A stretch of DNA of 64,000 nt from Liolophura sinensis. Its lineage: Eukaryota > Mollusca > Polyplacophora > Chitonida > Chitonidae. The DNA lies in contig NC_088295.1 in assembly GCF_032854445.1 (NCBI RefSeq), positions 48,781,385 to 48,845,384 on the forward strand, written 5' to 3'. A model generated the notes under the pieces. It was not told where the DNA came from and did not search any database. It saw nothing but the letters and a program-made list of their open reading frames with translations. Shown one piece after another: positions 36,030-63,535 of the stretch (the first letter of the stretch is position 1; each line of letters opens with the position of its first letter). The position numbers and the translations under genes were made by a program.

Positions 36030-36205
36030 ATGATGAATGAGCAACACAACAGTGGAAACTCTTCGGCCATGGCAGAGAAAAGCAAATCAGAACATAATCC
36101 GCCAGGTTTCAAGGCAAACCGAGTGCAGAAGATGTTGTCTATGGTACCGGGAGGGGGGCAGCTACTGTCGCTACCCCCAACAGTTACCTGGTTGGCTGTC
36201 AAGAG
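36030..36205 (+). CDS. DOP1: DOP1 probable upstream exon (N-terminal extension or 5'UTR)
   Basis: An open frame starting ATGATGAAT at 36030, with a stronger in-frame ATG at 36069 (GGCCATGG context). It ends CTGTCAAGAG before GTAACA. Spliced to 38456 it stays in frame and runs straight into the conserved start ([18 protein letters not shown]). Vertebrate DOP1 lacks this extension, so the conserved ATG at 38466 could be the real start and this exon 5'UTR. Phase agreement favours coding but can occur by chance. Confidence 0.5.
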
Positions 36206-39200
36206 GTAACAAACAGATGTCCAGTCATGCTTTAGACCTGTTATTTTGTCGTGTTGATCAGAAATTCGAAAGTTGGATGATTGGATCATAGAAATGTTGT
36301 AATCATGAATGATGGGAGTGCTTTACTCGTTGATCATGGGAGTGCTTTACTCATTGATGATAGAAGTGTTTTGCTCATGAGTGATTAACGGTGGGATTTA
36401 CGCATTGATCATGGGAGTGCTTTACACATTGGTCATAGAAATGTTTTACGCATTGAGTATGGGAGTGCTTTTCTCATGGATTATGAGAGCACCTAACTCA
36501 TTTACCATAGAAATGTTTTACTTATTGATCAGTCTTTGGAAGTCTTTTACTCATCAATCATGGGAGTGCTTTCCTCATTGATAATGATGCGTTTTACTCA
36601 TAATTGTGGGAGTGCTTTACTCGTTGATCTCTGGAGTGCTTCATACATTGGTTGTAGAAGTGTTTTACTCATTGATTGTGGGAGTGCTTTACTCATTGAT
36701 AATAGAAGCGTTTTACTCATAATTGTGGGAGTGCTTTACTTGTTGATCTCTGGAGTGCTTCACATATTGGTTGTAGGAGTGTTTTACTCATTGATTGTGG
36801 GAGTGCTTTACTCATTGATTATGGGAGTGCTTTACTCGTTGATCTCTGGAGTGCTTCACATATTGGTTGTAGAAGTGTTTTACTCATTGATTGTGGGAGT
36901 GCTTTACTCATTGATAATAGAAGCGTTTTACTCATAATTGTGGGAGTGCTTTACTTGTTGATCTCTGGAGTGCTTCACATATTGGTTGTAGAAGTGTTTT
37001 ACTCATTGATTGTGGGAGTGTTTTACTCATTGATGACAGGAATGCTTTACTCATTGATCAGAGGAGTGCTTTACTCACTAGTCATGGGAGTGTTTCTAGT
37101 ACCCATCATTTCCTTGCAATATATTTAGATAAAACAAGTTGATAAAACTTTAGAGTTAAAGTCTGCATATAGTATCTTTAGGGGATATTGTTGAATTTGG
37201 AGGTCGGCTATTAAAAATGATTTTGTTACTATTCTGTCATCTGATCATTTGCCTCTCACCGCTCCACTAACTCCATTAACAGATGAATTTACAGACAGTG
37301 TTTTGATTTTGTTTATTTGTTGTAGGGTTTGTATTTATCCTTCATAATTTGACCATTTGTTGGTTCTGTTGGCCATCTTAAGTACTTTTGTGAGATATAT
37401 ACACCATTAATTCTGTCAATGTCAATGTTAGATTCTATAGTTTTTTTTGAAAAATAGTCTGTTTATGAACTGCATGCTTAACAGTTTATACATGTACTTT
37501 AACTTTGTGGTTTTATTATTTTTAATTGCTCTTATCCAATAGAACAAAAAAGCACAATTAACTGCTGTGAAACGTGTCAGTGCATGTACTGTAGGTGTGC
37601 AGAGTTATATTTGGGGTGGGGGGTGGGGGTGGGGTCATGTAATGTTCGCTCTGTACCCACTATAGGGGCTTTCCCTGAATGGGGTGATCAGCTTTATTTA
37701 TGGTTATGACTCAAACCTGCAGGACCATGGCTGTACACATGAGTAATACACTGCCCATTGTTCAGTCTATGTACTTGTGTAAACACATAAATGATGATCT
37801 GACTAAAGGGATTTTGTTTGACCATTTACATTGTAGAGGCCCTTCTCTTGACATACATGCGTTCTATACATGTATGTCTGATTTGTATTTGATGGGTGCA
37901 GTTGCGTGAAAATAGCCGATTTTCGTCTTCATTTTGGACACATTATACATACATGTATGCCTGTATGTGCTGGTGATCAGTATTATAGTATGCCCAGTCT
38001 TAATATAGACTCTATTAGAAACAAAACAACTTTAATACAATGCTGAAAGCACTTGTCATACAGTTTGCATGATATGCAGGCAGGTTAAGCTTATCTACGC
38101 ATACCTGTACTTGTAGGCCTACCTGTAGGTATAAAATTGTCAGTTCAATGACCTGCAGTAATTTGGGCTTGTAGGGAGATGCTGATAACATAAATGTACA
38201 CAGTACCAGTCAGTTTATACGTGAAGTTTGAAATTTACAGGAAAGGGTTATGTGCCAGGTTTGGAAAGTCATTAAAATCCTTAAAAAAAATTCTAACTGT
38301 TTTTTTTTTTTTTGATCTTGAATGAGGCATTATTAGGCAAAAGTAGACTGTCGAAATATTGAATATGGTATTCGACACTCTTGTAAATAAATTGAAACCA
38401 TCTATACTTATTTAATACTTGATAATTTCTTCCCATGTTGTTGTTGTTGTGTCAGGTATGTAGAGATGAGTTCGCTGACTGTGGAGGAGTGTGAACTGCT
38501 GAGCGATGCTAAGTACAGGTCCTACATCAACCAGGTGGAGAAGGCCCTCAAGAGCTTTGAGTATACCAGTGAGTGGGCTGACCTCATCTCTGCACTGGGC
38601 AAACTTAACAAGGTATGCTTCAGGGTCGACCATATTACTTTTTAGTCTATACCAATTCCTTATCTACTGTAGGTATTGCAGAGTGGGCACCCTTTTTTTG
38701 ATTCCAAAGAGGTTTAAAACATTATTTTTTTTTTTAATTTGTCTTAAGAGCGCAAGTGTTTTTTCAGTACTTGGAAGAACTCTTCCAGGTACATGTACAC
38801 GCACATTTACTGAATTACCATAGATTAGGCCCTGAATCCACACCTGAAGATTTCTGTTGTAATAAGAAATTTGAAAATCTGTACACAATCACAAGAAATT
38901 CTCACAATACATCAGATTTGTGATGGATTTTTTTTTTACATCGAATGAGAAAGTTAAGATGGTTTAATTTCCTGAAAAAATCTTGACCCAGAGCACATAC
39001 ACAAGTTTCAGCATTTGACAAGGTAGTTAGCACCTATATTATTACCAACAGCCCAATGGACAATCACATATCTGCTAGCCAGTAATGCAATGGTGCATCT
39101 AGTATCATAAGTATTATATGTGCAATCATGTCAACTCTATATGTTCAGCTTCTTGTTCATTATGATTTCGCTTCAACCGTTAGACCTTACAGTGCTAATT

Positions 39201-45200: not shown

Positions 45201-48200
45201 TCTCTGTGCCAAGATCCTGCAGAAGGTTCAACCCTCCATGAACATCCTGGGCAGTGAGGCTCAGGAGAAGGAGACGGAGGTGTTCCTGGCGGGGGATCAG
45301 GACATAGACATCAAGAGCACCTTTGCTAAGATCACCAGTGAAACGTCTGTGAATGAGACCAAGGAGGACCGTGGGGAGAATGACATAGAAAAGCACCATG
45401 ACAACGAGCCAGAGAAAGCCGAGGATTCGTCACAAGAGGAGGCTGAGGGAGAGGACAGCGGTGCACAGTCAGTGGGCAGCAGGAAAAGCTCCACCCCAAC
45501 TCTAACCAGTAGGGTGTCAGAAAATGAGGAGTCTTCTGGCACAGGGGACAGTTCCGCGATGAGAGAGTTTCAGCGCTATAACTCCATTGAGATAGAGCGC
45601 TCCCCATCCAGGGTGTCCTATCGTATCAGTGGCCCACTGACACTTATGCAGGCCTGTGTTCAAAGCTTCCAGGAATTTTTCCATGTGTTTGTCACAGAAA
45701 AAGTGCTTGGGGATAAAGACTTGGCAAAGAAATGCCTGGATCTCATAACACTGTCGTCGGACTCAGGGAAAGGTTCTGACAGGGACTCGTTGCTGGAAGG
45801 TGGCTCCATCTACAGCCAAGAGGAGGTAACTCCTGGAACTAAGGTGGGAGTGCAGTGTTTGGTGAGCTCTGATAGAATCACTAGCCACCTATGTGAAGCC
45901 TTCTCTTCAGCCTGTAAACTGCTGGTGGATTTCTCCAGTTTCCCCATGTACTGTACAGACTATCATAAACTCATGGACCAGACATTAAAACAGGGTAAGT
46001 GTGTGGCTTTTGTTGCAGGTGTAAACACATGGCCTTTGTTGCAGGTGTAAGCACATGGCCTTTGGTGCAGGTGTAAATGCACGGCCTTTGGTGCAGATGT
46101 AAGTGGGTGGTCTTTGTTGCAGGTTTAAGCACATGGCCTTTGTTGCAGGTGTAAACGCATGGCCTTTGTTGCATGTGTAAGTGGGTGGTCTTTGTTGGAG
46201 GTGTGAGTGCATGGCCATTGTTGCAGGTGTAAGCACATGGCCTTTGTTGCAGGTGTAAGCACAAGGTCTTTGTTGCAGGTGTGAGTGCATGGCCTTTGTT
46301 GGAGATGTAAGTGGGTATTCTGGTTTTCTTCTCCGTTTAACCTGATTGATTCTACTAGTCTTAATTTTCACCTATTTTTAAAAAGAGGCCAGAAATGACA
46401 ACTCAGGCTATTCGGCCCTTTAAAGTTCTGTTTGAAATGAAAAAAGAGTACCGTACCTGTATGTACCTGCCTCTCTACACATACATATTGGGTTAGCCAG
46501 CTAACCGTCCACTTGTGTTAAAACTCTGTTTGGACACCCTGTTTACAACACTTTTAACATGGAACATATAAGGGAAAATGAAATCTTGACACCCTGCTAT
46601 AACAAAATGGCCTCAAAAAGGGATGTTTGGACACCCTCTTTCACATTTCTGGCTATTAAACCCCCCTGCTTCTACACGAATATGTAGATCAGGGCCTTGA
46701 GTACATGTAAGAGAAATATTTTTGAGTACAGCACAAAACATTACACAATGAAATCAATAAAAATCATTCATTATTCCATGTATTTCCTCCAAAAGAACTA
46801 CTGATACCCTGTATCCACAGCAAGCTGTATATACCTGACACATAGTGCATGTTTTGTCATATTATGGGAGTGTTATTTGATCTCTACAGGTCATTGCCCA
46901 TTACATGTATTTCTGTGAAGTTTGTGTCAAAGATAAATTTTAGTCTTCCAAATCGTATGAAATATGTTTTCAAATTGTAATCTAAATATGTGTATTGCAA
47001 TTGAAAATGTATTATGCTTAAAAATGTTCTTCTTGGAAACAGGTAAGCACGACATTAAACCCCGAGCACTCACTCACTCACTCACTCTTGGGAATGTGCC
47101 ATGTTTTAGTTGTTTGAGGTGCTTGCCTTTCAGTTGCTAGGTGTGGGATCAAACACAGCTGTGGTCAGGGAATTTGTAGATGCTGGTGAGGCTTTGGTGA
47201 CAATCCTCATGAGGCCGTATGGCGTAGTCTTAACACTCTTTAAAAACCGCTTGTCTACCACTAACTTGACCCGCAGGGTTTGCTTATCTGTACATCGTAT
47301 GTGGGAAAGTTTGTCAGTGACTTGCCAGAGGTCGGTGGTTTTCCACAGGGCACGACAGTTTCCTCAACCCAGTAAACTGAGCGTCATCATATGAGTGAAA
47401 AATTCTGTGTCACTTAACAACAGTGAAATAAATAAAGGTATAAATAAATACGTAAATAAGAATGTTTTTGCCCCCACAGATGAGGAGTTGACCTTACCCT
47501 GCTGGCTTCAGGGCCTCATAACATGCACATCATTTGTGGACAGTTTTAAGATCAAGACGGCAGCCATCTCCACGATGCTGGACCTAATCATCCTCACCCA
47601 GTCTGTACAGTCAGAGACGGAGAGCAAGGATGCAGAGCATGGTCACAAGCGCTCCGTCACCGAGGGAACCGTCTCCGTGGTTATTCTGCCCTTTCTCCTC
47701 CCAAAGCATCTCTATTTTCTCAACAGTTCTACACTCTTCTATCGAGTAAGCTTGTATAATTGAGTAAAGGTCATATTCTAGAGATACATATTCATCGCCA
47801 TGGAGTTACGTTTGATGTGGTGTTAATTGCTCTTCATAAAATATAACCTTGACCGCTAAACCTTATTCAGTCACTCAGGTGTGGTTTTCAAATCTAGCTC
47901 TTTCAGCAGGGAGTAACACAATTCTGACTTACATGTACAGTGTACTCTAGGAGGTTTGCAATGTACCCACTGCGTAATACACCATGTAAAGTATAGTATG
48001 TTCATGGGGTTATATTTTGTGAATGATATTAATGCTGTTATGAGGTCCACTACACCTAGTGCCATTTGTGGGAAAGGCATCTGCAAGCTTGCATATTACT
48101 GTAGCCGTTAGTTTTAGCTGCCAATTCCTCTGCGGCCTTACGTGGGAAGGTTTGCCAGCAACCTGCAGATAGTCGTGTTGTTTATGTTTCAAAAAATGTC

Positions 48201-51200
48201 AGATATACCTAAAACATGACCTAAACTTTCTCCCCATAATTGCACTTTTTGAGGGAAATAAATTTTTTCTTTAAAATATGACTTTTATTACTGAAAGTTA
48301 CATTTTTCCAGTTGAATGTCATCTTATCTCCCATGTAAACCACAAAACACCTTTCAGAGATCATTCGAACTCTCAGAATCAGGTAAAAAAGATGCAGCTT
48401 TGTAGGGGTCGAAATTTTCCGTCATTTAGTGTATCCCAGCGTAGAGAACTTCAAACTTTGTGTGTGTATATTTCTTACTGTCTATGTTTTAGTCACTGTA
48501 TGACTGGCTGTCTGTTGNNNNNNNNNNNNNNNNNNNNNNNNNNNNNNNNNNNNNNNNNNNNNNNNNNNNNNNNNNNNNNNNNNNNNNNNNNNNNNNNNNN
48601 NNNNNNNNNNNNNNNNNNNNNNNNNNNNNNNNNNNNNNNNNNNNNNNNNNNNNNNNNNNNNNNNNNNNNNNNNNNNNNNNNNNNNNNNNNNNNNNNNNNN
48701 NNNNNNNNNNNNNNNNNGGGGTCGAAATTTTCTGTCATTTAGTGTATCCCAAGGTAGAGAACCTCAAACTTTTTGTGTTTATATTTCTGACTGTCTATGT
48801 TTGAGTCACCGCATGACTGGCTGTCTGTTGTAGATGGTATCTGAGGGCCTGTGGGAGTACCTGGGGGAGGAGAGCAGTGGCTACCATCAGACCAGTGTGG
48901 AGCTGTTCCATCAGCTACACCAGGTCACCCCCAAACAGCTGGGTCTGTGAGGATGTCATAGGCAACGCTCTCATACAGGACGACCAGGTGAGTGGCAGGG
49001 GTATCTACCATAATGCAGCATGTAGCTGATAACTGTACACACTGCCCTTTGTGGCAATATTATGTTCTCCAGATTTCATCTAAAAAAATGCATATGTACA
49101 ATGACAGAGTTTATGGTGCTAAACATGTTGTTAAGTTCTAAGAGATTCTGGCAGGCTAGGTTTTCCTGAACAAGTATTTGACAAGATATTTGTTCATATT
49201 TATCCAGGCATGTTGTAAAGGCACTGCTTTGTTCTATCTAGGCTTATTATCGAGCCAGAACATTACTTTTCTCCCCGTATTTGACCTGCACAGGCTAATA
49301 TGGTCTTTATATTTCTGAAATCAGACGAAAAGAGTACACAAATTTTGCCTCCGTATACATGTTTGTGTATGTCACATCATTTACTGTGGAAAAATGTTCT
49401 CTTACTGAATCTTACTGATTCACAAGCACATTTGTAACATACAGCAACACAAAGTCAAACGTAGGCAGCTACCTGCTCAATTTTCTACAGAAGTAGATGG
49501 GTGCGGGTAGCTGGTAACAGACCATCTAATGAAACCCCTGCATACATGTAACTGTTTATTACGTAACTACAGCAAAAAAGGATAGATGCATACAAGAAGT
49601 TTACAGTGCTGTGGCATTTGACGAGAGACAAGAGAATGGAGACCACGCCTGGACGAATGATACGAACCTATGACAGGTGAGTGAGTGCATGCACATTGTG
49701 TGTACCCACGTGTTTGTTCATGTGATGGTGTCGTTTGTTGTTGCGTTGTCAGGCCAGTGTATATGGTACTGGACAGGAAGTAGCTCACCTAGTGTTCTTT
49801 CCATCCAAGTCCAGTCATACATGTAGTTTGTAATAAATATGTACAGAATATTTCATATTAGTGTAGTATTTGGCCTGTAAAAATGCACTTTCCCAAGCAC
49901 ATAAAGACCTTAAAGTGATAAAATAAGAAATGAATCCAACTTGGTAAATAACTCTAAAGTGGCACTATGCCGTGAATAAATCAGTCAGAATCAAGTAAAA
50001 TGTGTCACAATGCTGGACTTTAGGAGAAATATAGTAATTTCAACGTAATACTAGATTATTAGCTCTCCTGTCAATTAATACTTACATGTTCATTTACTTG
50101 TTGTTGTTGTTGTTGTCAGATCAATGTTTGTGGTGCTGGACAGCCTGAAGGAAGAGACGAGCCCCACCCAGGCCATAGCTGGCACTTGGGTCACACACAG
50201 TCTACAGAGAGGGGACCTGGGTAGAATGCTGGAGCCTATCCTCCTGATGCTCTTCCATCCAGACACAGCCAGGTAGTCCTGCATGTAACATTACATGGAG
50301 CCTCAGTCAAATAGACTTTTGAGATCTGTCAGTCATTGTCACTGGTTGTGTAACTGGCTGTGTAAACAAAGCAAATTTAAAAGAAGGCGAGGTAGACCTT
50401 GAATAACATTTTGCCATAAACAAAAAAATGAAATTAAAGCTTTTAGTTAAGATACTCTTTCTGGAAAAGCCTTCGAAGTTATATGTACATAAAACTGTAG
50501 GAATTTGGAAATATCAGCATTTCACCCATTTAGCCCCATACTATTTATCACCTATCTCTGTAAACCAAGATTTTCAAAACCAAAGTCAAATATGAAATGG
50601 CACATTTCAATTTGTTTTTTTGATATCACAATTCATACTTTCATATAAAATAAGACTAGCTTCATATGGTCAATGGTGTGTATTTTTTTATAGATGAGCT
50701 TTTTTGATAATTCAATCCATTTGATCTAAAGATGACCAAACTAATCTGTGAAATACCTGTACTCAAGCGGCAAAAGTCCCAGGCATTAGGACTGTATCTC
50801 AAAGTATTTCTGGCATTATAGCATCTACCCTAATTCCTCAGCCTTTTCCTTATAAAAGAGCAACTTTCAGTGCAATTTATGCACATTTTTAATTTGATTT
50901 TGGAGACAAGCCACATTCAATGGATTGGCCAATTTCAGGGCTTTAAGAAAATTAAAATTTTAGCAGTTCACATAGAATAATGCCTTCAGAATGTGCTTAA
51001 GTAAACAACACGCAAACATGCGAAAAGGTTTAAGAATTTACAGTAATTGTCATACCTGAGAAGGTCTTCCAGCAACCAGTGGATGGTAATGGGTTTCCCT
51101 GAGCCCAGTTTCCCGCCCACCATAACACTGGTCATGGTCATATACGTGTACATGTATATTCTTGAGTATGGCGTAAAACACCTATCATATATAAGTAAAT

Positions 51201-54200
51201 AAATAAGTGCCACGTAATGGAAAGGATAATGAATTTTAAGATTAGGTGATATATGCATTCATACGTGGTGTTAGTTGTTGTTGCTGCAGAATGATAAAGT
51301 AAGATTTACTAGCATTGGCATCTTCTGTTTTACAGAATCTCAATTCAGCACGTGAACATCCATCAGCCTAAGAAAGTGAAGCTGAGTGATGTAGGAGACG
51401 AGATCGAGTCGACAGAAGCCAAAATCTTCGCCATCAGCAATGAAGGTGGCAATGTGATTTACCACGTTAGCTCACAAGGTAAAACCATCTCTAAAAGGAG
51501 TGCGGAGGATCTGAAATCCTATGCCTTGACAGTGGTAAATGAGAAAGGCTCCAAGTCCAAGTTTGTGACCGCTCCTACACGGGCTCAGCCAGACCTCCCT
51601 TTTGAAAGGGTCAATGCAGACATGCTGAACTTACGTGTGAATCCTTTCGGGACAGAAAACGTGTTGGACAGACTGGTGTTTGACGGGCTGGATATTCCTG
51701 GTGTAACCATGTATGCAGATCACCCTGACCTAGCCAGTATTAAGAGACTGAACAAAGAGACCTGTCAGAAAGAAGGGATAGTGTTTGAGGATAGGGATCA
51801 AGAGGAGTCAGAAGTGACTCTGTCAGAGACTCCAGCTGAACAAGAGGAGTCTGTTGAGGACATTGTGCTAGACATTCTGGAGGAGTTGATCGACAAAACG
51901 ATGGAGAGTAAGCCTTCAGACACACCTATCCCATTACGCTCCACAAGGGAGACAAGCGTGGTGTCCAGAGACAGTGTCAGTTGTCCAGAAGATGAACTGT
52001 TAAATTCCATTGAGCGTCAGGGCGTGAACATTGACTCCCCTTCAGGTAGTGATGTGGATCTCTCAAAACAGAACTCGGGGTCACATGGCGAGCCAAGCTC
52101 TACGGACATCCACACCCTTCATATGCATATTTTGCTCTATACACAGAAATATGACTTCCAGAGAACTCTGTACGCTCTCACCACACTCAAGTCACTCATT
52201 CGGTCTTGTCCAAGGCTTGTCGTGGTTTCCATGGCAACGTGTAGCATTTCTGCAGTTCGGACACCTCACTTGCTCAAGGTTCAGACGTTGCTGGCCCGAC
52301 ACAGGAAATCTGTGTTTGGAAGAATTTCTTCGGGGAAGTTCCTTCGGAGACGCTGTCAGGCTGCCGTATGAACATGTACCTGGAAATTCTGGTGTCCAGT
52401 GTTGTTGTATTATGTGAGGAGCTACTACCCTAATCTGATGATGAGTAAACTGGCCCCAGAGGAGTTAATGGGGAAACCGAGAAGTCCACATTCTCAGTGC
52501 TGAGATTCTTATGTTGATGATGTCAGAACTAATCCTAATTACTAAGGACAGCGGTAAAAGCTTGCCTCTTACATGGACAGTTTACTGACCAAGTGCAAAA
52601 CTTCAGAAGGCTCTGCTTCACTGCGTACTCGCTAGTAATTTACAACGCGCGACGTAAATTCAGTAAGGAGAAAAGTGCAACTAGCTTTACGGAAACTATC
52701 GTCGATTTCAATGAAGAGAATTTGGACTCGTCGGCCGTCGAAACATTCCAGATTAAGCTGCTTCAGTTGCTTCGCGTCATGGTTCAACTGGAAGATCACA
52801 TTGTTAAAGCTAATGGGGAACAAGATGCCTCCACTTCAGCGGGGTCACAGAATGGGAGCAGTCAAAGTCAGCTTCCAGCCTTCTCTTTCTCATGTGCGTT
52901 ACAATCCAGCATTACCCATGGTGCATCAGGCTATGTTTTTGTCTGGGATTCTTAGTGCCCTGAAACAGCAGCATGTTGCCCACATGCACAGACACTGGAT
53001 ATCCATGGTTACATCATCTTTACCATTTATGGGCAAAGCTCTGTCACATATTGTCATGTCCCGTCGTGGCACAGTTGTGTCGCAATCTGGAGATGCTTGC
53101 TCAGGCGTATGGACCACCCATCATGAATAGTAAAGCAAGGTAGGTTTACATATGCACTGGAAGGGCTTCAGACATGTCAGTTTATTTGAATGTGGCACAC
53201 CGTTTTTCTATCGTTTTTCGTTTGATTTGGGCATATCCAAGATTTAAATGCACACTTGTACTAATTTATTCGTTATTGTTTATCGAATTATGTGTTTGTT
53301 TATAAATTCACATAAAGTCACCATGTTAGGGAAGTGAAATGAATATTTGTTGTTCTCTACGTTCATTTCAGTTAAGTACATGTATGTAAGTCACATATTG
53401 ACTTATTTTGGGAGATGTGCGTTATGTATTTGGTAACACACTGAATTACCATAATATTAGAAGATTCCCAATGGATTGAGACTTTTATTATATTTCTTCA
53501 ACCTTTTCGCGAATGAAAGAGCAACTTTCAGCCCCAGTTATGCACATTTTTAATTTGATTTTGGAGACAAATCCATGCTGGTTGGGTTTTCAGGCATTCA
53601 CTTAAAGTATAATTTTACTAGTTTAACATTCGAAAAAGTTGAAGATTACAGTATCTGCAGATTTTACTGTATTTTCCTGTAAATATCTCCTCTGTGTATT
53701 CTACCCACTGCATCATATACATACACATTATGCATGTGTACATTAGGTGTACATTAGGTGAATGTGGATACTGAACGTGGATACTTCTACTGAAGTCAGA
53801 GTAAGGACTTTTTGTGTAAGATTCTCCTTTGATGAACCCATCCTTGCGCACAGAGTACTGACTGCTTGTATACATATATGGAGTCAGTGCTGGGAGAAAA
53901 CCTGGACTCAGGGCTGTCTGCTATGTGAGCGAGATAGCCTAGAGACTGAGGGGATTACTTGTTAAGGATTACTGACTAGAAGAAGCTCAGTTGATCTGTA
54001 TGTATAGTGAGTAATTTATATTCCAAGTTAATTACAGGTACATAAATCTAAGTTTCTACACACCCTGTAGCGTATTTACTGTGTCTTTATCCTGTACACA
54101 AGCTGTCTTGACCATAAAGGTAGATTGATTATTGATGTGATCTTGTCCCATGTCCCAACAGCAGTAGCGGTTTACGGCGAGTACCCCTGACCACATGCTG

Positions 54201-57200
54201 ACCATGCTGGAGGGACTGACCACCCTATGTCACTACTGCCTCCTGGACAGCAGTCCCAAAGTGTCGCTGGGAGCCCGCTACCATCGGGCGCCAGCAGCAC
54301 CTCAGAGGCTAATAACTATGCCAGTCAGATCATCTTTAACCTGCTTCATGTATTCAACCCAGTCAGTGGCAAGGTAAGGAAAAGGGGTGTGTAATTTGTT
54401 GCAAATTAAACATTTACATGAACTGTTAAATAAACCCCTAACTAAGGTATTAAAAGAGGCTGTGTTTTTGTAAATAATGGTTTCTGTACACATTGACAGA
54501 GTGTTAAAACATATTGAGCTGTAAACAGATAGGGAGGTTACTGGTGGTTGTGTTGAAATTTATTTCTGGTCTGGTCTTGTCACCATCTGTGTTTGCATGT
54601 TTGTCACGTTTGTGAGGAAGGATTTTCATACATGGCCATGTGGTCATTTCAATCAGTCAGCTCTGAAAAAGCTCACCTGTGAAATAATTTAATTTAGGTA
54701 CACTGTGCAAGTAATGAAGAAAATACAGGCTTTTTTTTGGGCTGTCAATCCATGCTTTGATAATCCAGTTCAGATAATACTAAGTTTTTTAATCAAATGG
54801 TGATAAAGGCTTGATGTTAAACCAATTGCACTGTGAACTAGAATTCTGTTATTAACTGTTTGTTTAATCTATTTGTAGGACTCCAGCCCCCCACGTGACC
54901 TGACGACAGCCATTTCTCCAGTTATGGAGGCTCGTCGGGATCTGCTGAGCATCCTTCCTCGTATCATAGCCTGTCTGGCCACCATCTGGAAAGCTATCAC
55001 TCTGTCTAACCAGGAGGCCATGGACACACAATCTGAACAAGCTAACTGGACCATGGGATCACCCAAGGTAACACCTGCATGTGGACAGCAGGGCTCCTTT
55101 TGGATCTTGGAAAACGTTGAAAAGCCTGGAAATTTGAAGTAACTTTTCATTTCTTTGAAAAGCAAGGTTTCACTTTGAAAAGCCATGAGATGGAAAACTG
55201 TATACATCTCTGTAAAAGAGATGTACTGTATACTTTAACAGTGACTGGAGAAATTGGTGGGCTGTGATCTGGTGGTTAGAGGTGGGGTCAGACACGGCCT
55301 TGGACAGGCAATGCATAGATTACCTTACTCTTGCTGTTTGTGGGGACTTGGTGACAATAAGCGATCAAAGACCCTTGTGTGCCTGTTTACTATATCGTCT
55401 GTCATTTCTTTAAGGTCACTTGTCTTCCACCCTTAAGATGGTCGTGTATACATGTGTCTCTGTACGTCACATGTGGGAAAATTTGTCAGTAACTTGCTAA
55501 AGATCGTTATGCTTTATGCCTGGCACCCTGATTTCCCTTTGACTTCCTCATAAGACTGACTACCATTGTATAAATGAAAATTCTTGAGTATGGTGCTCAG
55601 CAAAAATCAAATAAATCAATAGATAAATAAATAAAACTGCTGTCTGTTTCACAGATTATCCAGAGGTACATCCTGGATTTCCTCAGTCCCTTATCTCAGT
55701 CCCATGGGGTCAGTCTGTTGGGAGCTGTGGCTGTCGCCTGGAATGACCGCCGCAAGAAATCCAGCTCTCATGCCAAAAAGGTAAGTGTCAGTGTACGTGT
55801 CATTGAGACTCTGGTTTCATGTCTACATGGTTAGCACTGCTATCGCCGCTATTAATGCTTCAAGGTTTTTTTTTTCTTTTTTGCTCCTTTTGTTTTTTTA
55901 CACAGGAATTGGCGATGAAAATCAGTGCCTGTTAATACACTCAAATGGAATGTAGATTAATAAAACGAGTGTGTTGTGTTTAGAATGAGGGTAGTAAGCT
56001 TGTGTTTAATGTGTCCCGCACACATATACAACACACATGTAGGACACACAAGACACCGCTGTAGAATGTTCATCGTGACTAAAATTACGTAATAAGGTCC
56101 TGCATGTACTTCAGACTTCTGTCGGTATCCCATTCAAATAATTATATGCACAGAGTAATGAATAAAGTGATATTTGATAAATGGGTAGACAGTTAATATG
56201 ACCGTGTGAAAGTCAAGTACTTGTGTGTGTATACACCATGGGTTTATATGTCAGGTGTGTGTCTATCATAGGTTCATAGTACATCTGTATGTCAAGTCCT
56301 TGTGTTTGTATACACCATGGGTTTATATGTCAGGTGTGTGAGTACCATAGGTTCATAGTACATGTGTATGTCAAGTCCTTGTGTTTGTATACACCATGGG
56401 TTTATATGTCAGGTGTGTGTCTATCATAGGTTCATAGTACATGTGTATGTCAAGTCCTTGTGTTTGTATACACCATGGGTTTATATGTCAGGTGTGTGAG
56501 TACCATAGGTTCATAGTACATGTGTATGTCAAGTCCATGTGTGTGTATACACCATGGGTTTATATGTCAGGTGTGTGTCTATCATAGGTTCATAGTACAT
56601 GTGTATGTCAAGTCCATGTGTGTGTATACACCATGGGTTTATATGTCAGATGTGTACATACCATAGGTTCATAGTACATGTGTATGTCAAGTCCTTGTGT
56701 TTGTATACACCATGGGTTTATATCCCAGGTGTGTGAGTACCATAGGTTCATAGTACATGTGTATGTCAAGTCCATGTGTGTGTATACACCATGGGTTTAT
56801 ATCCCAGGTGTGTGAGTAATATAGGTTCATAGTACATCTGTATGTCAAGTCCATGTATATGCAGACTGTGAATCAATTGTTCTCCTCAGGTGATCCCGGT
56901 GCCATGTGATGACCAGCTGTTGTTGGTGGATCTGGTCAGTGAGATCAAGGTCCTGCCTACAGACAAACTTGTACAGATGGTCAAGCAGGTGATGAAGCAA
57001 CCCCCTCCATCCGAACTCACCAAAAACAAGGTACATGTACCTTATAAAATCACCAAAAATCCTGAAGGTCTTGTAAAGTTTCCTATCAGGTCTCTGTGGC
57101 TAGTGCATCACAGTGACCCAGGAGCCGATGAGTTCAAGTCCAGCTTATACTGGATTCCTTTCCATTTGTATGTGGGAAGGTCTGCCGGCAACCTGCGAAT

Positions 57201-60200
57201 GATTATGTGTTTCCCCTGGGCTCTGCCCTGGTTTACTTTCACCATCACGCTGGCTGTCGTCATATAATTGAAATGTTGTTGAGTATAAAACATTAATCAA
57301 AACATCAATCAAATAAATAAATAAGGCTTCTTATGATGAATGTCATGTTAAAGGACAAGTTGTTTAATCAGGATATAGAGGTTTTTTGATACATGATCAG
57401 AGCCAAGCCTAATCTTGTCATGAACTCTGGAAATAATACTATTGACCTCTTTATATGGTGTTCACCATTTTGTTCAAATAATCTTGGATGATTTAAACTA
57501 TGTGTACCCTGCAACAACATTGTCTTATTTCCTTGAAGTATTTAATCATTACAGCATACTTTCTTCTTCTTTTGGTACTTAAATGCCCTTCCTTTATAGA
57601 TTCACAAGTAGGTGTCTAATACCCTGTTCACTCGAGCAAAGTTAAGCTGTTTTAACTTGCAAAAGTGGCTTTCAGCCAGTTTGACGTCGACCATGTGAAC
57701 GCAAAGTGAGGGCATTTAATCCGGTGTATTTGCCCCAACTAGCAACGTGGCTTTAAGCCAGTTTCAGTGCTTGAGCCGGTTTATCTGTGCTGTGTGAACG
57801 GTAACTGGATTAAATGCTCCAGGGACGTGGCGGTCAAAATAACATCTTAATTACTAAACCAGCTTAAATGTGACCATGTGAATGGGCCATTCCCTGAACT
57901 ATCTTAAAAGCGGCATGGCCATATGGTCATGTGAACGCCCACATTTTTACAACTAGCTTCGATTTAAACCAGTTCAGATTTGATCTGGTTTAAATTGATC
58001 TGTGTACGGGGTACAATCTAACAGGTTTCTTACAAACTAATAATTTCATGTTGAACACATGTTGTGTTATCATCTGTCTTGAATCTTGAATTTTTCTGCC
58101 TCCTTGACAGAAGAGTATTCCACTGGAGGTGAACCTGTTGCAGTTTTTCTTTGCCTACATCCAGCAGACGTCTGGGATACAGCTGATTGACTCGTGGCCT
58201 TCCCTGCTGACCCTGATCAAGGATGGCCTTCAGCTGAACATCTCACCACCAGGACAGTTCTTACTGCTGGAGTTAGTGGTCAACTTCGTTTTCTCAGCCT
58301 TTGTAAATGACATTCTGTCTTGAAGCAACATGTGACTTGACAACCCCTTGATATGTACATGTAGATTTAGTACATTTACAAGATGATGTTGACTGAAATA
58401 TGGTGTCTTTTTGAATGAAAGGATGAATTATTAGGGCTTATTATGATTGTTTTCTTGAAGATGTGCGAATATATTTTTGCTTTCAAAAATATGTATTAGT
58501 AAGCCGGTATGAACATATACTTTTATGTGTAAGAGGAATTAAAACATTCCTTAACTGACCATGTTATTAATTATTGTTTTGTGGGCAATTTTCAGGATAG
58601 AATAGCTCAAACAGAGCTAATGCGTTGTTGGAAAACCACGGTGTCGGAAAAGTAGTACATTGTTTGTCTATCTGACCTGTTTTTAAAAGAATTCATTTCC
58701 AATGAAAAGTTTTACAAAATGTCATGTCTGACAAAAAAAAGTGCCAAAAAAAAAAATGTGACGAATTTCTTTCTTCTCTTTGTTTTTGTAGAATATTAAA
58801 TGAGGCTGTGCAGAGAATGCCTGGTATGGATGACCGGAAAAGTCAAAAGGAATTGCAGGTACTTGTTTAGTTTCATGCTGCATGAGAAATGTAGATAAGA
58901 AAGTGCGAGTCTATTCTACATGTGCATCACATGTACTGCATGTATTGCAAAATAACCAGCTGTAAGAAGGGAAATTTCTTCAATGTTGAGGATATCTGAT
59001 TATTTATTTCTTGATATTGTTGTGACATGGTCAGTGATGGTTCATTTGCTCACGGTCAGGATATTGTTTTCATATGATGAATGATGATGTTTGTTTGTTT
59101 GCTCACATTCAGGATATTGTTTTCATATGATGAATGATGATTGTTTGTTTATTTGCTCACTTTCAGGATATTGTTTTCATATGATGAATGATGATTGTTT
59201 GTTTGTTTGCTCACTTTCAGGATATTGTTTTCATATGATGAATGATGATTGTTTGTTTGTTTGCTCACTTTCAGGATATTGTTTTCATATGATGAATGAT
59301 GATGATTGTTTGTTTGCTCACTTTCAGGATATTGTTCAAAAGGTTCTGGACTCTGTGAGCACTATCGCTGGGTCATGTTTGGCTCAAACTACATGGTTAC
59401 GGCGTAACCTGGCTGTAAGACCCGGCCCTCAGACTGACATCCACGATGTGGAGGATGGAGATGTCAATGAGGAGAGTGGTCCGTATACAGTTGCACTTCA
59501 AATAGGCTATGCTTGACACTTAGGAAAAATTAGAGGTTTAAATATTTATTTATTTATTTGATTGGTGTTTATGCCGTACTCAAGAATATTTCACTTATGC
59601 GACAGTGGCCTGTATTATGATGGGAGGAAATCGGGCAGAGCCCGGGGGAAACCCACAACCATCAGCAGGTTGCTGGCAGACTTTCCCACGTAGATGTTTA
59701 AAGTTTAAGAAGCCATGTCCAGTGTATGAACTCGTACATACATACATTGTCACTGCTGTTGTACTGTTGTAGGTTACATATTTCTCCTTGTATTTATATG
59801 TGCCTTAGAATGACAATAGAACAGCTTGAGAACTGCTTTTACAACGCTTTATTAGTTACCTATATAAACGTGCATGTCGGTTTCGTGGTATTTATTTATT
59901 TTCCCGTGTAAGTAGGGATTGATGGTTGAAACAACTTCCAATCATAAAACACCGATACTCTCTGTTTACCAAGAAGTGAAAAAAAAATTTTTGATGAAAT
60001 CATCTGTTAGTTAGCCGAAGTGCTCAAGGGTTACAGCCCTGATATAGCCAGATCTCCAACAGAAATGCTTTCAAAAGCAGGAGCATTCATAGCTCACTCT
60101 GGGTTGGTGGGACCAGGACATTGTAACACTGTCCTCTGGTGGGAAAACTGCTGTGATTTGATACTAAAACATCTTTTTGATGTAGTGCTGCTGAATTCTT

Positions 60201-63200
60201 TTTCCCTTATTCTGTAATATTTGTAATGTTCAATACAATGCCTGTGTCTCTCCACGCAGATATGGAGATGTCGCCCCCCTTGGAGAGAAAAGTGATAGCA
60301 CCGCAGAACTCCAATTCTGAGATCTCCAAGTACAGTGTACAGGCTCTGACCCAGCTGGCAGAGGTAAGTTTTCAGTGCTAGCAAGGCCTGTAGTGGTCAT
60401 GATTCTTGTTGAATTTTTATATACAACAGCCCTCCACGCACCCTCATTAAATAGATAAAAAAAAGTTATATAAAGTCTGTTACATACAAGTTTTGGTTTA
60501 TCCCCATTGCATACTTGAAACATGATAAAAGTTATTCAGTGAAATGAATGACTTAAATATTAGTATAGAGGTTGTGAAGATTTTATCTGTCTTTTAACTT
60601 TATATATTCTTTCTTCATGCTAAGTGAAAAATGCTTTGTTTAGAAAAGAGAAGAATTTTGTGTCTCTTATGAAACACTGTTGCCTGATAAAACTTCAGTT
60701 TCCAGTCTAAATATTAATTTTGCGGTTGTTAGAGGACTGCCAGTCTCCTGGATGTGGTGTATGGGAGTGAAGAGAAGGAGAAAGTTGTCCCATTCCTCAC
60801 TTCCATTATGTACAACGTCTTCCCTTATCTCAGAAACCACAGGTTAGTAAACACATCATTGTCTCTACCATGTACAGTCTTTCCTTATCTGAGAAAACAC
60901 AGTTAAGTAAACACATCATTGTCTCTCCCTTGTACAGTGTCTTTCCTTATCTGAGAAAACATAGTTAAGTAAACACATCATTGTCTCTCCCATGTACAAC
61001 GTCTTCCCTTATCTCAGAAACCACAGGTTAGTAAACACATCGTTGTCTCTGCCATGTACAACGTCTTCCCTTATCTCAGAAACCATGGTTTAGTAAACAC
61101 ATCGTTGTCTCTGCCATGTACAACGCCTTCCCTTATCTCAGAAACCACGGTTTAGTAAACACATCATTGTCTCTGCCATGTACAACGTCTTCCCTTATCT
61201 CAGAAACCACAGGTTAGTAAACACATCATTGTCTCTGCCATGTACGTCTTCCCTTATCTCAGAAACCACAGTTTAGTAAACACATCGTTGTCTCTGTCAT
61301 GTACTATGTCTTTCCTTATCTGAGAAAACACATTTAAGTAAACACATCTTTGTCTCTCCCGTGTACAACGTCTTTCCTTATCTGAGAAAACACAATTAAA
61401 GTCTTTCCTTATCTGGAGAGACACAGTTTAGTAAACACATCATTGTCTCTCCCATGTACAGTGTCTTTCCTTATCTGAGAAAACACAGTTAAGTAAACAC
61501 ATCGTTGTCTCTCCCTTGTACAGTGTCTTTCCTTATCTGAGAAAACACAGTTAAGTAAACACATCATTGTCTCTCCCATGTACAATGTCTTTCCTTATCT
61601 GAGAAACCGCAGTTTAGTAAACATATCATTGTCTCACTCGTGTACAACGCCTTCCCTTATCTCAGAAACCACGGTTTAGTAAACACATCATTGTCTCTGC
61701 CATGTACAACGTCTTCCCTTATCTCAGAAACCACAGGTTAGTAAATACATCATTGTCTCTGCCATGTACGTCTTCCCTTATCTCAGAAACCACAGTTTAG
61801 TAAACACATCGTTGTCTCTGTCATGTACTATGTCTTTCCTTATCTGAGAAAACACAGTTAAGTAAACACATCGTTGTCTCTCCCTTGTACAGTGTCTTTC
61901 CTTATCTGAGAAAACATAGTTAAGTAAACACATCATTGTCTCTCCCATGTACAATGTCTTTCCTTATCTTAGAAACCACAGTTTAGTAAACATATCATTG
62001 TCTCACTCGTGTACAACGTCTTTCCTTAACTGAGAAACCACAGTTTAGTAAACACATCATTGTCTCTCCCGTGTACGTCTTTCCTTAACTGAGAAACCAC
62101 AGTTTAGTAAACACATCATTGTCTCTCCCGTGTACAACGTCTTTCCTTATCTCAGAAACCACAGTTTAGTAAACACATCATTGTCTCTCCCGTGTACGTC
62201 TTTCCTTAACTGAGAAACCACAGTTTAGTAAACACATCATTGTCTCTTCCGTGTACAACGTCTTTCCTTAACTGAGAAACCACAGTTTAGTAAACACATC
62301 ATTATCTCCCGCATGTACAACATCTTCCCTTATCTGAGAAACCACAGTTTAGTAAACACATCATTATCTCTTCCATGTACTATGTCTTTCCTTATCTTAG
62401 AAACCACATGGTATTTATCTTGCCCAATATGTCAACATGTAAGACGTCCATTCAATACATAAAAATCAAACCATCCAGATGTTCATTATCATATTATCAG
62501 CAATGGCTCAAGGGTACTGTTAATACATTCATTCTCCTAACATTGTTAAACGCCATAGTTGTTTATTTGCTCATGGTTCCAGCCCTCACAACCTCCCAAG
62601 TTTCCGGGCTTGCTCACAGTTCCTGTCCAGCATCAGTGGTTACCAGTACACTAGGAAGTCCTGGCGGAAAGAGGCCCTGGAGCTCCTGCTGGATGCCAGC
62701 TTCTTCCAGATGGACCAGAAGTGCATTAGCTACTGGGAGACCATCATAGACAATCTGATGACCCATGATAAGACCACCTTCAAGGACCTCATGAGTAAGG
62801 GGGCTGGGTCAGCATAGTCTGGGCAGGGCTAATTTGCTTGACAGTCTGAACAATCAGTCAAAAGCTACCTAGTTTGGATGCTTTTGTGGTTTTGCACTTT
62901 GGCTCCACTTTCATTTCTGAAGGGGCAGCCGCATGGCCCAGTGGTTTAGCTGGTGAAAAACTCCATGAAATTCTAGATTATAGCGCATACATGTACTTAT
63001 ATTTTATTGAAGCTGATTTCCGTTTTTGCACCACTCATGTATTTATTCAATAACATGTTTATTATACACCAAAAATCAATCCTGTCATCTAAGGAGCAAA
63101 GTTAAGCCCACAAACGGCCACCTGCCATATAAAACATATGCGGCATGACCACCTCAGTGTTTAGATATAGGCAAACTTGGAAGTTGGTATATAATACTGT

Positions 63201-63410
63201 TTAGTAACATGTTTCTGTAGAGTTCCTTGACAGTTTTCCTCTTGCCTCTTGTCTCAGGTCGTGTGACGGTGGTACAGGCGGGCTCCCTGAACCTATTCAG
63301 CAGTAAGGACCAGGAGTTTGAACAGCGGACCCTGCTCCTCAAGAGGCTCGCCTTCACATTGTTCTGTAGTGAACCTGACCAGTACCAGAGGAACATGCCA
63401 GATATACAAG
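36030..63410 (+). CDS. DOP1: DOP1 (dopey), 5' and central part of gene, 22 exons in window
   Basis: DOP1 is a large peripheral membrane scaffold that works with MON2 in endosome-Golgi transport; mammalian DOP1A also links cargo membranes to kinesin-1. Exons: 36030-36205 (probable), 38456-38612, 41136-41488, 42101-42290, 42817-43668, 45085-45994, 47480-47745, 48834-48987, 49573-49676, 50120-50272, 51336-53139, 54162-54373, 54879-55067, 55655-55780, 56890-57030, 58111-58271, 58792-58858, 59328-59478, 60260-60363, 60733-60842, 62583-62794 and 63258-63410; more follow beyond the window. The N-terminal dopey domain is clear ([75 protein letters not shown]). Later matches include [35 protein letters not shown] and [19 protein letters not shown]. 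About 2190 residues are covered (human DOP1A 2465, DOP1B 2298). Exons 8, 11 and 12 have single-base frame breaks at homopolymers. One gene corresponds to the two vertebrate paralogues. Confidence 0.93.
36305..37102 (+). repeat. 24-bp minisatellite in DOP1 intron 1
   Basis: The unit is approximately GGGAGTGCTTTACTCATTGA plus TCAT, with higher-order variants (GATCTCTGGAGTGCTTCACA and TTGGTTGTAGAAGTGTTTTA). Because 24 is a multiple of three, the plus strand shows long open frames of MGVLYSLI-type octapeptides (36536-36937 and 36940-37128). These look like a by-product of the repeat, not a protein. Confidence 0.92.
37613..37634 (+). other. G-run cluster, potential G-quadruplex
   Basis: Four G runs of 4 to 6 separated by single T (GGGGTGGGGGGTGGGGGTGG). 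This fits the G3+N1-7 pattern for intramolecular quadruplexes. It is in DOP1 intron 1, on the transcribed-RNA-like strand. Confidence 0.6.
38456..38612 (+). CDS. DOP1: DOP1 exon with conserved N-terminus
   Basis: Encodes [20 protein letters not shown] onward to the invariant [19 protein letters not shown]. The ATG at 38466-38468 matches the usual family start. The acceptor follows a TTG repeat (TTGTTGTTGTTGTGTCAG) and the donor is GTATGC. Confidence 0.95.
39195..39325 (+). mobile_element. SINE type B, deleted copy
   Basis: TTTGTAGATTCTCCTGCTGT followed by the 3' end CGCCATCATATAAGTGAAAA and AATAAATAAATAG. Most of the body is missing. Confidence 0.6.
40417..40549 (+). mobile_element. SINE type A, 3' half, DOP1 intron
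   Basis: Runs from CAGCAACCTGTGAATGGTCG through CCCACCATAATGCTGGCCGC and AAGTGAAATATTCTTGAGTA to an AAATAAATAAAT tail. Confidence 0.8.
41625..41945 (+). mobile_element. SINE type B copy with C-rich insertion
   Basis: Shares CTTGCTGAAGGCCGATGGTT and CTGACTACTATTGTCCAAGT-type segments with other copies. A CCACCC-rich stretch (41813-41856) interrupts it. Confidence 0.6.
42101..42290 (+). CDS. DOP1: DOP1 exon ending in a GC donor
   Basis: Encodes the segment [20 protein letters not shown] through [15 protein letters not shown]. Homology and phase place the exon end after ATG at 42290, where the intron starts GCAAGT, followed by the exon at 42817 beginning [17 protein letters not shown]. No GT donor nearby keeps the frame. 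Confidence 0.9.
42477..42692. mobile_element. MITE copy 1 (TIR family)
   Basis: Left end TCCTCAACCTTTTTGCATG and right end CATGCAAAAGGGTTGAAATA are inverted repeats. The body has AACTTTCAGTGCAATTTATG and GATGTTGAAGATAAAAT. Related to 50830-51046 and 53505-53655. Confidence 0.75.
44794..45000 (+). mobile_element. SINE type A, DOP1 intron, close to acceptor
   Basis: Starts at TGACCCAGAACCCTCCCACC, carries a box B-like GTGAGTTCAAGTCC, the GGGAAGGTCTCTCAGCAACC body and the AAGTGAAATATTCCTGAGTA 3' end. It ends 84 bp before the exon at 45085. Confidence 0.82.
45995..46312 (+). repeat. 26-bp minisatellite starting at a DOP1 donor
   Basis: About 11-12 copies of GGTGTAAGCACATGGCCTTT plus GTTGCA. The first unit is the intron start itself (GGTAAGTGTGTGGCTTTTGT). 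Each unit carries TTGTTGCAG followed by GTGTAAG, i.e. an acceptor-like and a donor-like sequence back to back. Confidence 0.9.
47035..47092 (+). mobile_element. V-SINE-like 3' tail fragment
   Basis: GCACGACATTAAACCCCGAG followed by CACTCACTCACTCACTC is the same 3' end as the copies at 2412 and 13345. Confidence 0.65.
47105..47445 (+). mobile_element. SINE type B copy just upstream of a DOP1 exon
   Basis: A full-length-like copy: head TTGCTAGGTGTGGGATCAAA, middle CATGTGGGAAAGTTTGTCAG-like and CTTGCCAGAGGTCGGTGG, 3' end CATATGAGTGAAAAATTCTG with AAATAAATAAAG. It ends about 35 bp before the acceptor of the exon at 47480. Confidence 0.75.
48103..48180 (+). mobile_element. SINE type A, short internal fragment
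   Basis: Only the TACGTGGGAAGGTTTGCCAG and CAACCTGCAGATAGTCGTG part of the family is recognisable. Confidence 0.55.
48405..48517 (+). repeat. 113-bp gap flank, left copy
   Basis: GGGGTCGAAATTTTCCGTCA to CTGGCTGTCTGTTG. It is repeated at 48718-48830 with roughly 10% differences and the same length. See the gap entry. Confidence 0.9.
48518..48717. other. assembly gap of 200 N
   Basis: Exactly 200 N between two near-identical 113-bp flanks (48405-48517 and 48718-48830). The right flank leads into the DOP1 exon at 48834 and the left one ends just where the same TAG and exon would follow. The gap is probably an unresolved overlap of two haplotypes and not missing sequence of known size. Confidence 0.95.
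48834..48987 (+). CDS. DOP1: DOP1 exon next to the gap, one frame break
   Basis: Reads [20 protein letters not shown] and on to [10 protein letters not shown], then hits TGA unless one C of CCCCC (about 48916-48920) is removed, after which [18 protein letters not shown] follows as expected for dopey. The exon starts 116 bp after the N gap. Confidence 0.88.
50830..51046. mobile_element. MITE copy 2 (TIR family)
   Basis: Left TTCCTCAGCCTTTTCC, body AGAGCAACTTTCAGTGCAAT and GATTTTGGAGACAAG, right CATGCGAAAAGGTTTAAGAA followed by TTACAGTA. Confidence 0.75.
51056..51209 (+). mobile_element. SINE type A, 3' half, DOP1 intron
   Basis: Contains CAGCAACCAGTGGATGGTAA, CCCACCATAACACTGG and CTTGAGTATGGCGTAAAACA, with a diverged AAATAAATAAG tail. 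Confidence 0.7.
51336..53139 (+). CDS. DOP1: DOP1 large exon with multiple 1-base frame breaks
   Basis: The first kilobase is an intact frame, from [17 protein letters not shown] through an acidic linker to ARHRKSVFG. After 52319 the conserved protein continues only by changing frame eight times: near 52320 (A missing), 52401-52405 (extra base), 52474-52476 (extra A), 52562 (T missing), 52597-52600 (extra A), 52637 (extra A), 52881-52893 (extra T) and 53060-53062 (extra C). Between breaks the frames encode [93 protein letters not shown] and [14 protein letters not shown], all dopey-like. Splice sites are intact. Confidence 0.88.
53505..53655. mobile_element. MITE copy 3 (TIR family), shorter
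   Basis: Left TTCTTCAACCTTTTCGCGAA, body AGAGCAACTTTCAGCCCCAG and GATTTTGGAGACAAATC, right CATTCGAAAAAGTTGAAGAT followed by TACAGTA. The right half is shortened relative to the other two copies. Confidence 0.75.
54162..54373 (+). CDS. DOP1: DOP1 exon with two frame breaks and a NAGNAG acceptor
   Basis: The acceptor ACAGCAG allows exon starts at 54162 or 54165, differing by one codon in frame. The exon needs one more C in GTACCCCT (54184-54187) to read [19 protein letters not shown], and one more A in CCCAAAG (54258-54260) to read through [16 protein letters not shown] to the conserved [13 protein letters not shown] end. Confidence 0.87.
55250..55635 (+). mobile_element. SINE type B, best-preserved copy
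   Basis: Segments in order: GGTGGGCTGTGATCTGGTGG, TTGGTGACAATAAGCGATCA, CACATGTGGGAAAATTTGTC, AGTAACTTGCTAAAGATCG, CATTGTATAAATGAAAATTC, CTTGAGTATGG and AAATAAATAAATAAAA. It ends 20 bp before the exon at 55655. Confidence 0.78.
56213..56865 (+). repeat. 79-bp minisatellite upstream of a DOP1 acceptor
   Basis: About eight copies with period 79 (CACCATGG at 56234, 56313 and 56392), containing TATACACCATGGGTTTATAT and CATAGGTTCATAGTACATGT. Two alternating subtypes (TGTCTATCATAG and TGAGTACCATAG). It ends about 25 bp before the exon at 56890. Confidence 0.92.
57089..57325 (+). mobile_element. SINE type A, nearly full length, DOP1 intron
   Basis: The head GTGACCCAGGAGCCGATGAG (box B-like GATGAGTTCAAGTCC), body GGGAAGGTCTGCCGGCAACC and tail AAATAAATAAATAAG are recognisable, with a shortened 3' conserved segment. 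Confidence 0.8.
57622..58011. mobile_element. MITE-like TIR element in DOP1 intron
   Basis: The left end CCCTGTTCAC and the reverse complement of the right end (CCCCGTACAC) match 8 of 10 and both ends are flanked by TA. The interior is rich in subterminal GTGAAC/CATGTGAA and CCAGTTT/AAACCAG motifs. No ORF. Length 390 bp. Confidence 0.65.
59057..59327 (+). repeat. 54-bp minisatellite duplicating a DOP1 3' splice site
   Basis: Five units precede the exon at 59328. Each contains TTTGCTCACTTTCAG followed by GATATTGTT, i.e. the real acceptor and the first nine exon bases, then TTCATATGATGAATGATGAT. GATATT occurs at 59060, 59113, 59167, 59221 and 59275 before the real 59328. Confidence 0.95.
59543..59693 (-). 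mobile_element. SINE type A, 3' half, DOP1 intron
   Basis: Plus-strand TATTTATTTATTTGATTGG, CAAGAATATTTCACTTATGC and GGGCAGAGCCCGGGGGAAAC are the reverse of the family 3' half. Confidence 0.8.
60843..62400 (+). repeat. 63-bp minisatellite duplicating a DOP1 exon end and 5' splice site
   Basis: About 24 copies following the exon 60733-60842. Each contains a copy of the last 33 or so exon bases (TGTACAACGTCTTCCCTTAT, then CTCAGAAACCACAG) and the intron start TTAGTAAACACATCATTGTC. At least three copies keep the exact junction CCACAG/GTTAGT (donors at 61027, 61213 and 61737). The last copy at about 62371-62410 is fused to unique sequence. Confidence 0.95.
63258..63410 (+). CDS. DOP1: DOP1 last exon in the window
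   Basis: Encodes [20 protein letters not shown] through [19 protein letters not shown] to NMPDIQ, matching the conserved C-terminal third. The donor GTCAGC is immediately followed by a 15-bp minisatellite. The remaining C-terminal exons lie outside the window. Confidence 0.93.
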
Positions 63411-63535
63411 GTCAGCACTCTCAACACAGGCACTCTCACCATAGGCACTCTCAACATGGGCACTCTCAGTGTAGGCACTCTCAACATAGGCACTCTCAAC
63501 ACGGGCACTCTCAACATAGGCACTCTTAACACGGG
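63411..63535 (+). repeat. 15-bp minisatellite starting at a DOP1 donor
   Basis: About eight copies of GGCACTCTCAACATA, beginning 4 bp after the exon end. The unit keeps the exon's frame, giving repeated H-S-Q-H-R if the intron were retained, to a stop at 63527. Confidence 0.93.

Follow-up and report, generated by a model that had tools for sequence, protein, structure and literature searches.

Minisatellites at exon-intron junctions of a DOP1 gene: repeat anatomy, placement and resemblance to amphioxus mirages

Why should several minisatellites of a single gene lie on or beside its splice sites? The question is raised by the DOP1 gene located in a 64,000-nt stretch of contig NC_088295.1, assigned to Liolophura sinensis (the whole of this stretch is hereafter called the window, and all positions refer to it). 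An initial annotation had reported five arrays touching or nearly touching splice sites of this gene; all five were found again with Tandem Repeats Finder, several of them with edges at other positions than those first given. We consider it probable that these arrays are neutral minisatellites that span or abut junctions, of the kind described as “mirages” in amphioxus, and that they grew from independent duplications that crossed the junctions. The material consisted of the sequence of one haplotype, from which the DOP1 gene model was predicted.

Anatomy of the arrays at DOP1 splice junctions

The DOP1 gene occupies positions 36030-63410 of the + strand, with exons E1-E22 recognized from reading frames, junctions and Pfam matches (the first exon at 36030-36205 and the last one within the window at 63258-63410). 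The 22 exons and 21 complete introns were placed by eye on GT/GC-AG signals and submitted to a reading-frame check; the only GC donor is at 42291. Dopey_N, TPR_DOP1_M and TPR_DOP1 match single open stretches of the + strand, and DOP1_C matches residues 164-471 of the spliced product of E13-E22. The assignment of the gene to DOP1 in the initial annotation was confirmed by these four Pfam families, and its splice sites agree with the 22-exon model. The stop codon is not reached by E22, and the gene is taken as running on beyond the window. Reading frames chain across E1-E7 and E13-E22. Between these two blocks, E8 hits a stop in the chained frame, E9 and E10 are open but in a shifted frame, and E11 and E12 lack an open frame. 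These breaks (48834-54373; exons 8, 11, and 12) correspond either to small sequence errors or assembly indels, or to a damaged copy of the gene.

Tandem Repeats Finder returned 26 rows for the window, which were then merged. In DOP1, this left six arrays scoring above 150 (A0 to A5, all given on the + strand) and three small ones with scores of 50-56, located 73, 245, and 401 nt from the nearest junction. The 26-bp array A1 (45991-46313) starts at the intron 6 donor 45995, as first described. For A3 (59045-59336), the 54-bp unit was recovered, and the array runs across acceptor 59328 and includes 9 exonic nt instead of ending at the acceptor. The unit of A4 (60808-62408) measures 62 bp rather than 63 bp, and the array begins within the exon, 35 nt ahead of donor 60843, which it thereby includes. 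The 15-bp unit of A5 (63415-63531) was also recovered, the array beginning 4 nt past donor 63411, which is left outside the unit, and the 79-bp array A2 (56205-56856) ends 33 nt upstream of acceptor 56890 instead of 25. The initial annotation had omitted the three small arrays, the 24-bp array A0 (36312-37096; intron 1, 106 nt from donor 36206), and an array at 3313-4619 (62-bp unit, 21 copies, 93% alike) within an intron of about 2855 bp of an upstream DCAF-like gene. The latter lies more than 400 nt from either intron end and equals A4 in unit length, with an unrelated sequence. We regard A3 and A4 as clear mirages and A1 as a likely one; we read A5 and A2 as ordinary intronic minisatellites situated close to a junction, and A0 is not close.

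The units had been described as independent in origin, and their comparison supported this view, 17 of 21 unit pairs being matched by at least 16 of 60 shuffles. The lowest counts out of 60 were those of A1-A2 (1), A2-A5 (2), A1-A5 (3), and A2-A4 (5), and a CAGGTGTG-like stretch is common to the A1 and A2 units.

Intron 20 is 1740 bp long, and 1566 bp of it belong to A4. The exonic part of the first A4 unit (60808-60842, + strand) consists of the 35 nt that close exon 20, within the DOP1_C match. Cutting the array at TGTAC produces 26 pieces, the first corresponding to the exon end and its donor and the last being cut short; in one piece, two or more units are fused. Among the 25 later pieces, three keep 35/35 exonic nt together with the exact donor: the unit at 60992-61053 (donor 61027) and those starting at 61178 (donor 61213) and 61702 (donor 61737), all on the + strand. 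The 35 exonic nt of the exon-side unit are identical in these three inner units and not in the remaining ones. In 21 of the 25 later pieces, position +1 is a T, and this column is the second least kept among the 62 positions of the unit. Selection against the decoy donors is not claimed here, since one loss spread by homogenisation would explain the state of this column equally well; we take the T at +1 as a subtype mark that spread. Reading through from exon 20, a stop is met at 60904, ahead of every scored A4 decoy (the first at 60907).

In A3, the exonic part of the last unit (59328-59336, + strand) encodes the codons DIV of exon 18. All five upstream units retain the acceptor TCAG/GATATTGTT, where the slash marks the junction and GATATTGTT is the first 9 nt of exon 18. 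Scored with a matrix of 19 acceptors, two of the upstream sites equal the real acceptor (8.1), followed by sites at 7.4, 4.7, and 0.6. Any of these upstream acceptors, if used, would bring an in-frame stop 15 nt downstream. The junctions of both A3 and A4 fall within the DOP1_C match, that of A3 between residues 228 and 229 and that of A4 within codon 350; as the exonic parts of the two arrays lie inside this match, we take the exon copy as the original one and the intron copies as putatively derived from it.

The strongest donor in A1 is the real donor of intron 6 (45995-46000, + strand; AGG/GTAAGT), with a score of 10.4, the other A1 donors scoring at most 6.9 (the matrix was built on 18 donors of DOP1, the three tested donors being excluded). 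The A1 units repeat a GTAAGT/GTGAGT-like donor, mostly after TTTGTTGCAG or close variants, and in an ungapped alignment starting from the first donor base, units 1 and 2 agree at 20 of 26 bases. Within the units, the acceptor-like TTTGTTGCAG adjoins the donor-like GTGTAAG, a pairing that would be expected if a copy of the exon-end CAG was placed after a T-rich stretch. Read-through from exon 6 meets its first stop at 46048, and use of the weak donor at 46019 (score 2.8) would lengthen the exon in frame by 24 nt, with no stop.

We infer from this anatomy that a short tandem duplication would have crossed the exon-intron boundary in A3, A4, and probably A1, leaving a second splice site inside the intron, and that unequal exchange or slippage would then have spread further copies of the unit through the intron. 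The exon-side copy, i.e., the 5'-most donor or the 3'-most acceptor, would have stayed under selection and in use, the remaining copies being neutral decoys, some intact and others decayed. The proposal that duplicated splice sites are tolerated as neutral is consistent with the anatomy of the arrays and would account for their survival.

The same decoys could be read as functional, the arrays tuning DOP1 through early-stop transcripts that would lower its level. The three exact decoy donors of A4, the two A3 acceptors equal to the real one, and the early stops predicted behind A3 and A4 decoys would fit such a role in splicing. We nevertheless find it quite improbable, considering that 21 of the 25 later A4 pieces lack the G at +1, that none of the other A1 donors is as strong as the real one, and that the extension from 46019 stays in frame, so that not all decoys would poison the transcript. 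The amphioxus data, in the available parts of the two reports, also suggest that mirages leave regular splicing intact (PMC3087553, PMC3902484).

Placement of the arrays and of their founding units

All placement tests were post hoc. When the finished arrays were placed randomly in their own introns, the presence of three of six at a junction had a P of 5e-6, that of four of six within 5 nt a P of 1e-5, and that of five of six within 40 nt a P of 0.0006. When they were placed in any intron, neither three of six at a junction nor four of six within 5 nt was obtained in any of 200,000 trials. The argument of the initial annotation that random repeats would rarely hit exon edges so often holds strongly only for this null model, in which finished arrays can land anywhere. 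Tandem growth inserts copies and preserves the flanks; the distance to the exon would thus be set by the founding duplication, which makes the founding unit, in our view, the object whose position has to be explained. Before expansion, the introns of A3 and A4 would have measured about 240 and 236 bp, and a 54- or 62-bp duplication would touch or span an edge of such introns with a P of about 0.4 each. With founding units placed in their own pre-expansion introns, the P was 0.065 for three at a junction and 0.31 for at least two strictly spanning arrays. Including the DCAF-like array, the values were 0.085 at a junction, 0.014 within 5 nt, and 0.012 within 40 nt, with 0.35 for two spanning arrays. 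When founding units were distributed over all DOP1 introns, the P was 0.0067 for three of six at a junction, 0.00084 for four of six within 5 nt, and 0.012 for three of nine arrays.

Several points weigh against the reading of these arrays as neutral products of independent junction-crossing duplications. Under the founding-unit model with own introns, four edges lie within 5 nt of a junction vs. 1.26 expected (P 0.0077) and five within 40 nt vs. 2.02 expected (P 0.0054), and a real preference for junctions is possible. In A5 and A2, the real junction lies outside the repeat unit. In A1, the exonic overlap is ambiguous, the four exonic bases CAGG fitting only with a gap. Sequence errors are also possible, given a 200-N gap in the gene and the frame breaks in exons 8, 11, and 12.

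The excess of edge contacts would be explained if array formation was seeded at junctions by splice-site sequence or by co-transcriptional splicing, through GT- or pyrimidine-rich motifs, R-loops, or breaks. The donor-like motifs in the A1 and A2 units, including seven donor-like CAG/GTGTGT copies in A2, are also in line with seeding, which we judge unlikely on the whole. Strict spanning, as seen in A3 and A4, is not unusual under the founding-unit model, A0 and the DCAF-like array provide counter-examples, and the gene was chosen on account of the pattern. A comparison made without array calls, in which a 40-nt window counted as repetitive if it recurred elsewhere within 2 kb with 28/40 or more matching positions, also argues against seeding. 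Of 43 junction-adjacent intronic 40-mers, five were repetitive (one of them across the N gap), vs. 19.9% of 3497 overlapping interior windows; of 43 junction-centred ones, two were, vs. 19.1% of 3897. Repeats are not more frequent at intron ends than in intron interiors. None of 1089 windows within DOP1 exons was repetitive, which we count in favour of the main reading. What these tests leave is an excess of exact edge contacts that is modest and post hoc, and still not nothing.

The gap mentioned above is flanked on each side by a copy of a 113-bp sequence (48405-48830, + strand, with exactly 200 N at 48518-48717). The two copies are alike at 103 of 113 bases, the right one stopping 3 nt short of acceptor 48834. 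This duplicate represents either contig ends that overlap and stem from two haplotypes, or a further junction repeat that was collapsed; if founding duplications are drawn to junctions, it would be one more mirage. The gap with its flank duplicate and the frame breaks in exons 8, 11, and 12 could suggest that the arrays themselves are an assembly artefact. We give almost no credence to this possibility, as the A4 units vary in an ordered way, with subtypes, which the reuse of identical reads would not yield.

Mirages and intron gain by tandem duplication

The initial annotation considered the pattern undescribed for this gene; in general terms, it is known from amphioxus under the name of mirages (PMC3087553, PMC3902484). 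The following comparison relies on the available parts of the cited reports. In amphioxus globin genes, minisatellite-like duplications of intron-exon boundaries were described on both the 5' and 3' sides (PMC3087553). The term was taken from work on Adh3, and the globin study proposed mirages as a source of introns (PMC3087553). Splicing was reported to be regular despite the arrays, and the copy number to differ between haplotypes (PMC3087553). The loci concerned are Adh3, BflGb6, BflGb9, and PGBD5, the latter added by PMC3902484, which also cites TnC (PMC3087553, PMC3902484). For the other cited loci, the references given are papers on retinol dehydrogenase and presenilin (PMC3087553, PMC3902484).

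The DOP1 arrays resemble these mirages in that the unit holds an exon-intron boundary, at donors or at acceptors, and that the authentic copy borders the exon. Both the boundary and exonic sequence are present in the units of A3 (9 nt) and A4 (35 nt); in A1 only the donor is certain, and A5, A2, and A0 have neither. Mirage units range from 10 to 160 bp (10-72 bp in Adh3 and 150-160 bp in the globin genes), and those of A1, A3, and A4 (26, 54, and 62 bp) fall within this range (PMC3087553). Many amphioxus repeats, though not all, keep their splice signals (PMC3087553). Here, the AG is retained in 5/5 upstream units of A3 and the donor GT in 3/25 later pieces of A4. A further trait of amphioxus mirages is that the boundary units escape homogenisation; in A4, the exon-side unit shares its 35 exonic nt with three inner units and not with the others. 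The situation differs from that of amphioxus by the gene, DOP1, by a host that is probably not a lancelet, and by the presence of two to three such arrays, with two others merely near a junction, in one long gene. A likeness can also be drawn with the minisatellite of IFI6 (6-16, G1P3), reportedly described by Turri and others, which is said to carry multiple splice donor sites at an exon end. Both cases have repeated donors at the end of an exon; in IFI6 the inner donors are reportedly used, whereas the DOP1 decoys are predictions.

Duplications of this kind can also give rise to introns. Human tandem repeats at exon-intron boundaries can create introns (PMC2812944), and in the potato RdRp gene, a duplication crossing the boundary made one (PMC4974935). 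The DOP1 arrays share with these cases and with the model of Rogers the copying of splice signals across a boundary. One could thus imagine that the introns themselves were born by tandem duplication of AGGT-bearing exon sequence, the arrays being the remains of this process. The acceptor-like sites of A1 (with scores up to 11.6), which directly adjoin donor-like ones, would suit this scenario, which we consider very improbable. In intron gain by this route both ends of the intron lie in the repeat, whereas introns 6, 17, and 20 have only one end in the array, the other being 1166, 186, and 174 nt outside, respectively, and no new intron is evident in DOP1.

Among molluscs, an intronic 27-bp minisatellite that varies between individuals was reported in a TSSK1-like gene of abalone; the available part of that report does not mention a junction within the unit (PMC6905558). 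Junction-spanning arrays were not found among the open papers listed for mollusc terms, in searches that did not name DOP1. If the host is indeed a mollusc, mirages are not a peculiarity of lancelets, and one gene would offer two clear cases and a likely one at different stages, with intact decoys, decayed decoys, and exact copies of an exon end. Genome-wide counts could then test whether repeats spanning junctions feed new splice sites or introns. For the present, the case stands as an anatomical description accompanied by the modest excess reported above. It seems doubtful to us that outside lancelets too the founding duplications would be drawn to junctions and that long genes would gather independent mirages, whose ready-made decoys could serve the evolution of isoforms or introns.

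Other observations in the window

In the search against solved structures, none of the listed matches was DOP1. With the C-terminal query, 29 matches were obtained (best E 8.7e-17) and rejected, as they add up many weak stretches of repeat proteins, none of which passes singly; the three obtained with exon 11 (E 0.087-0.38) appear fortuitous. Rfam gave no match at the gathering threshold. At 57610-58030, several similar “agccagttt ... gtgaac” phrases, unreported by Tandem Repeats Finder, give on reading the impression of a repeat, perhaps an old and imperfect one.

Upstream of DOP1, a repeat at 506-704 with periods of 24, 27, and 51, all multiples of 3, lies in a Ser-rich open frame of 328 residues, a probable exon of the DCAF-like WD40 gene. 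The best solved-structure match of the later exons of this gene (5687-6135) was DCAF8. No Pfam family was recovered in five of the six frames of the first 15 kb, an absence that means little since a WD40 protein lies there. CHORD-domain matches, one of them just below the Pfam cut-off, were obtained at 16038-20753 on the + strand, indicating a CHORDC1-like gene.

Finally, seven copies of an interspersed repeat, on both strands, share a GTGAAATATTCTTGAGTAC-like core (at most 3 mismatches; 0.00 expected). The repeat is probably one that also occurs in mollusc sequences; a lancelet origin of the window is possible as well. An exact-pattern scan of prokaryote, virus, and plasmid contigs gave no match, and letters of the repeat were not found by a text search of the literature. 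The copies are located at 6251, 16284, 20731, 28033, 33843, 44965, and 59566, and an open stretch with a CHORD match (20298-20756) overlaps, at its end, with the copy at 20731.

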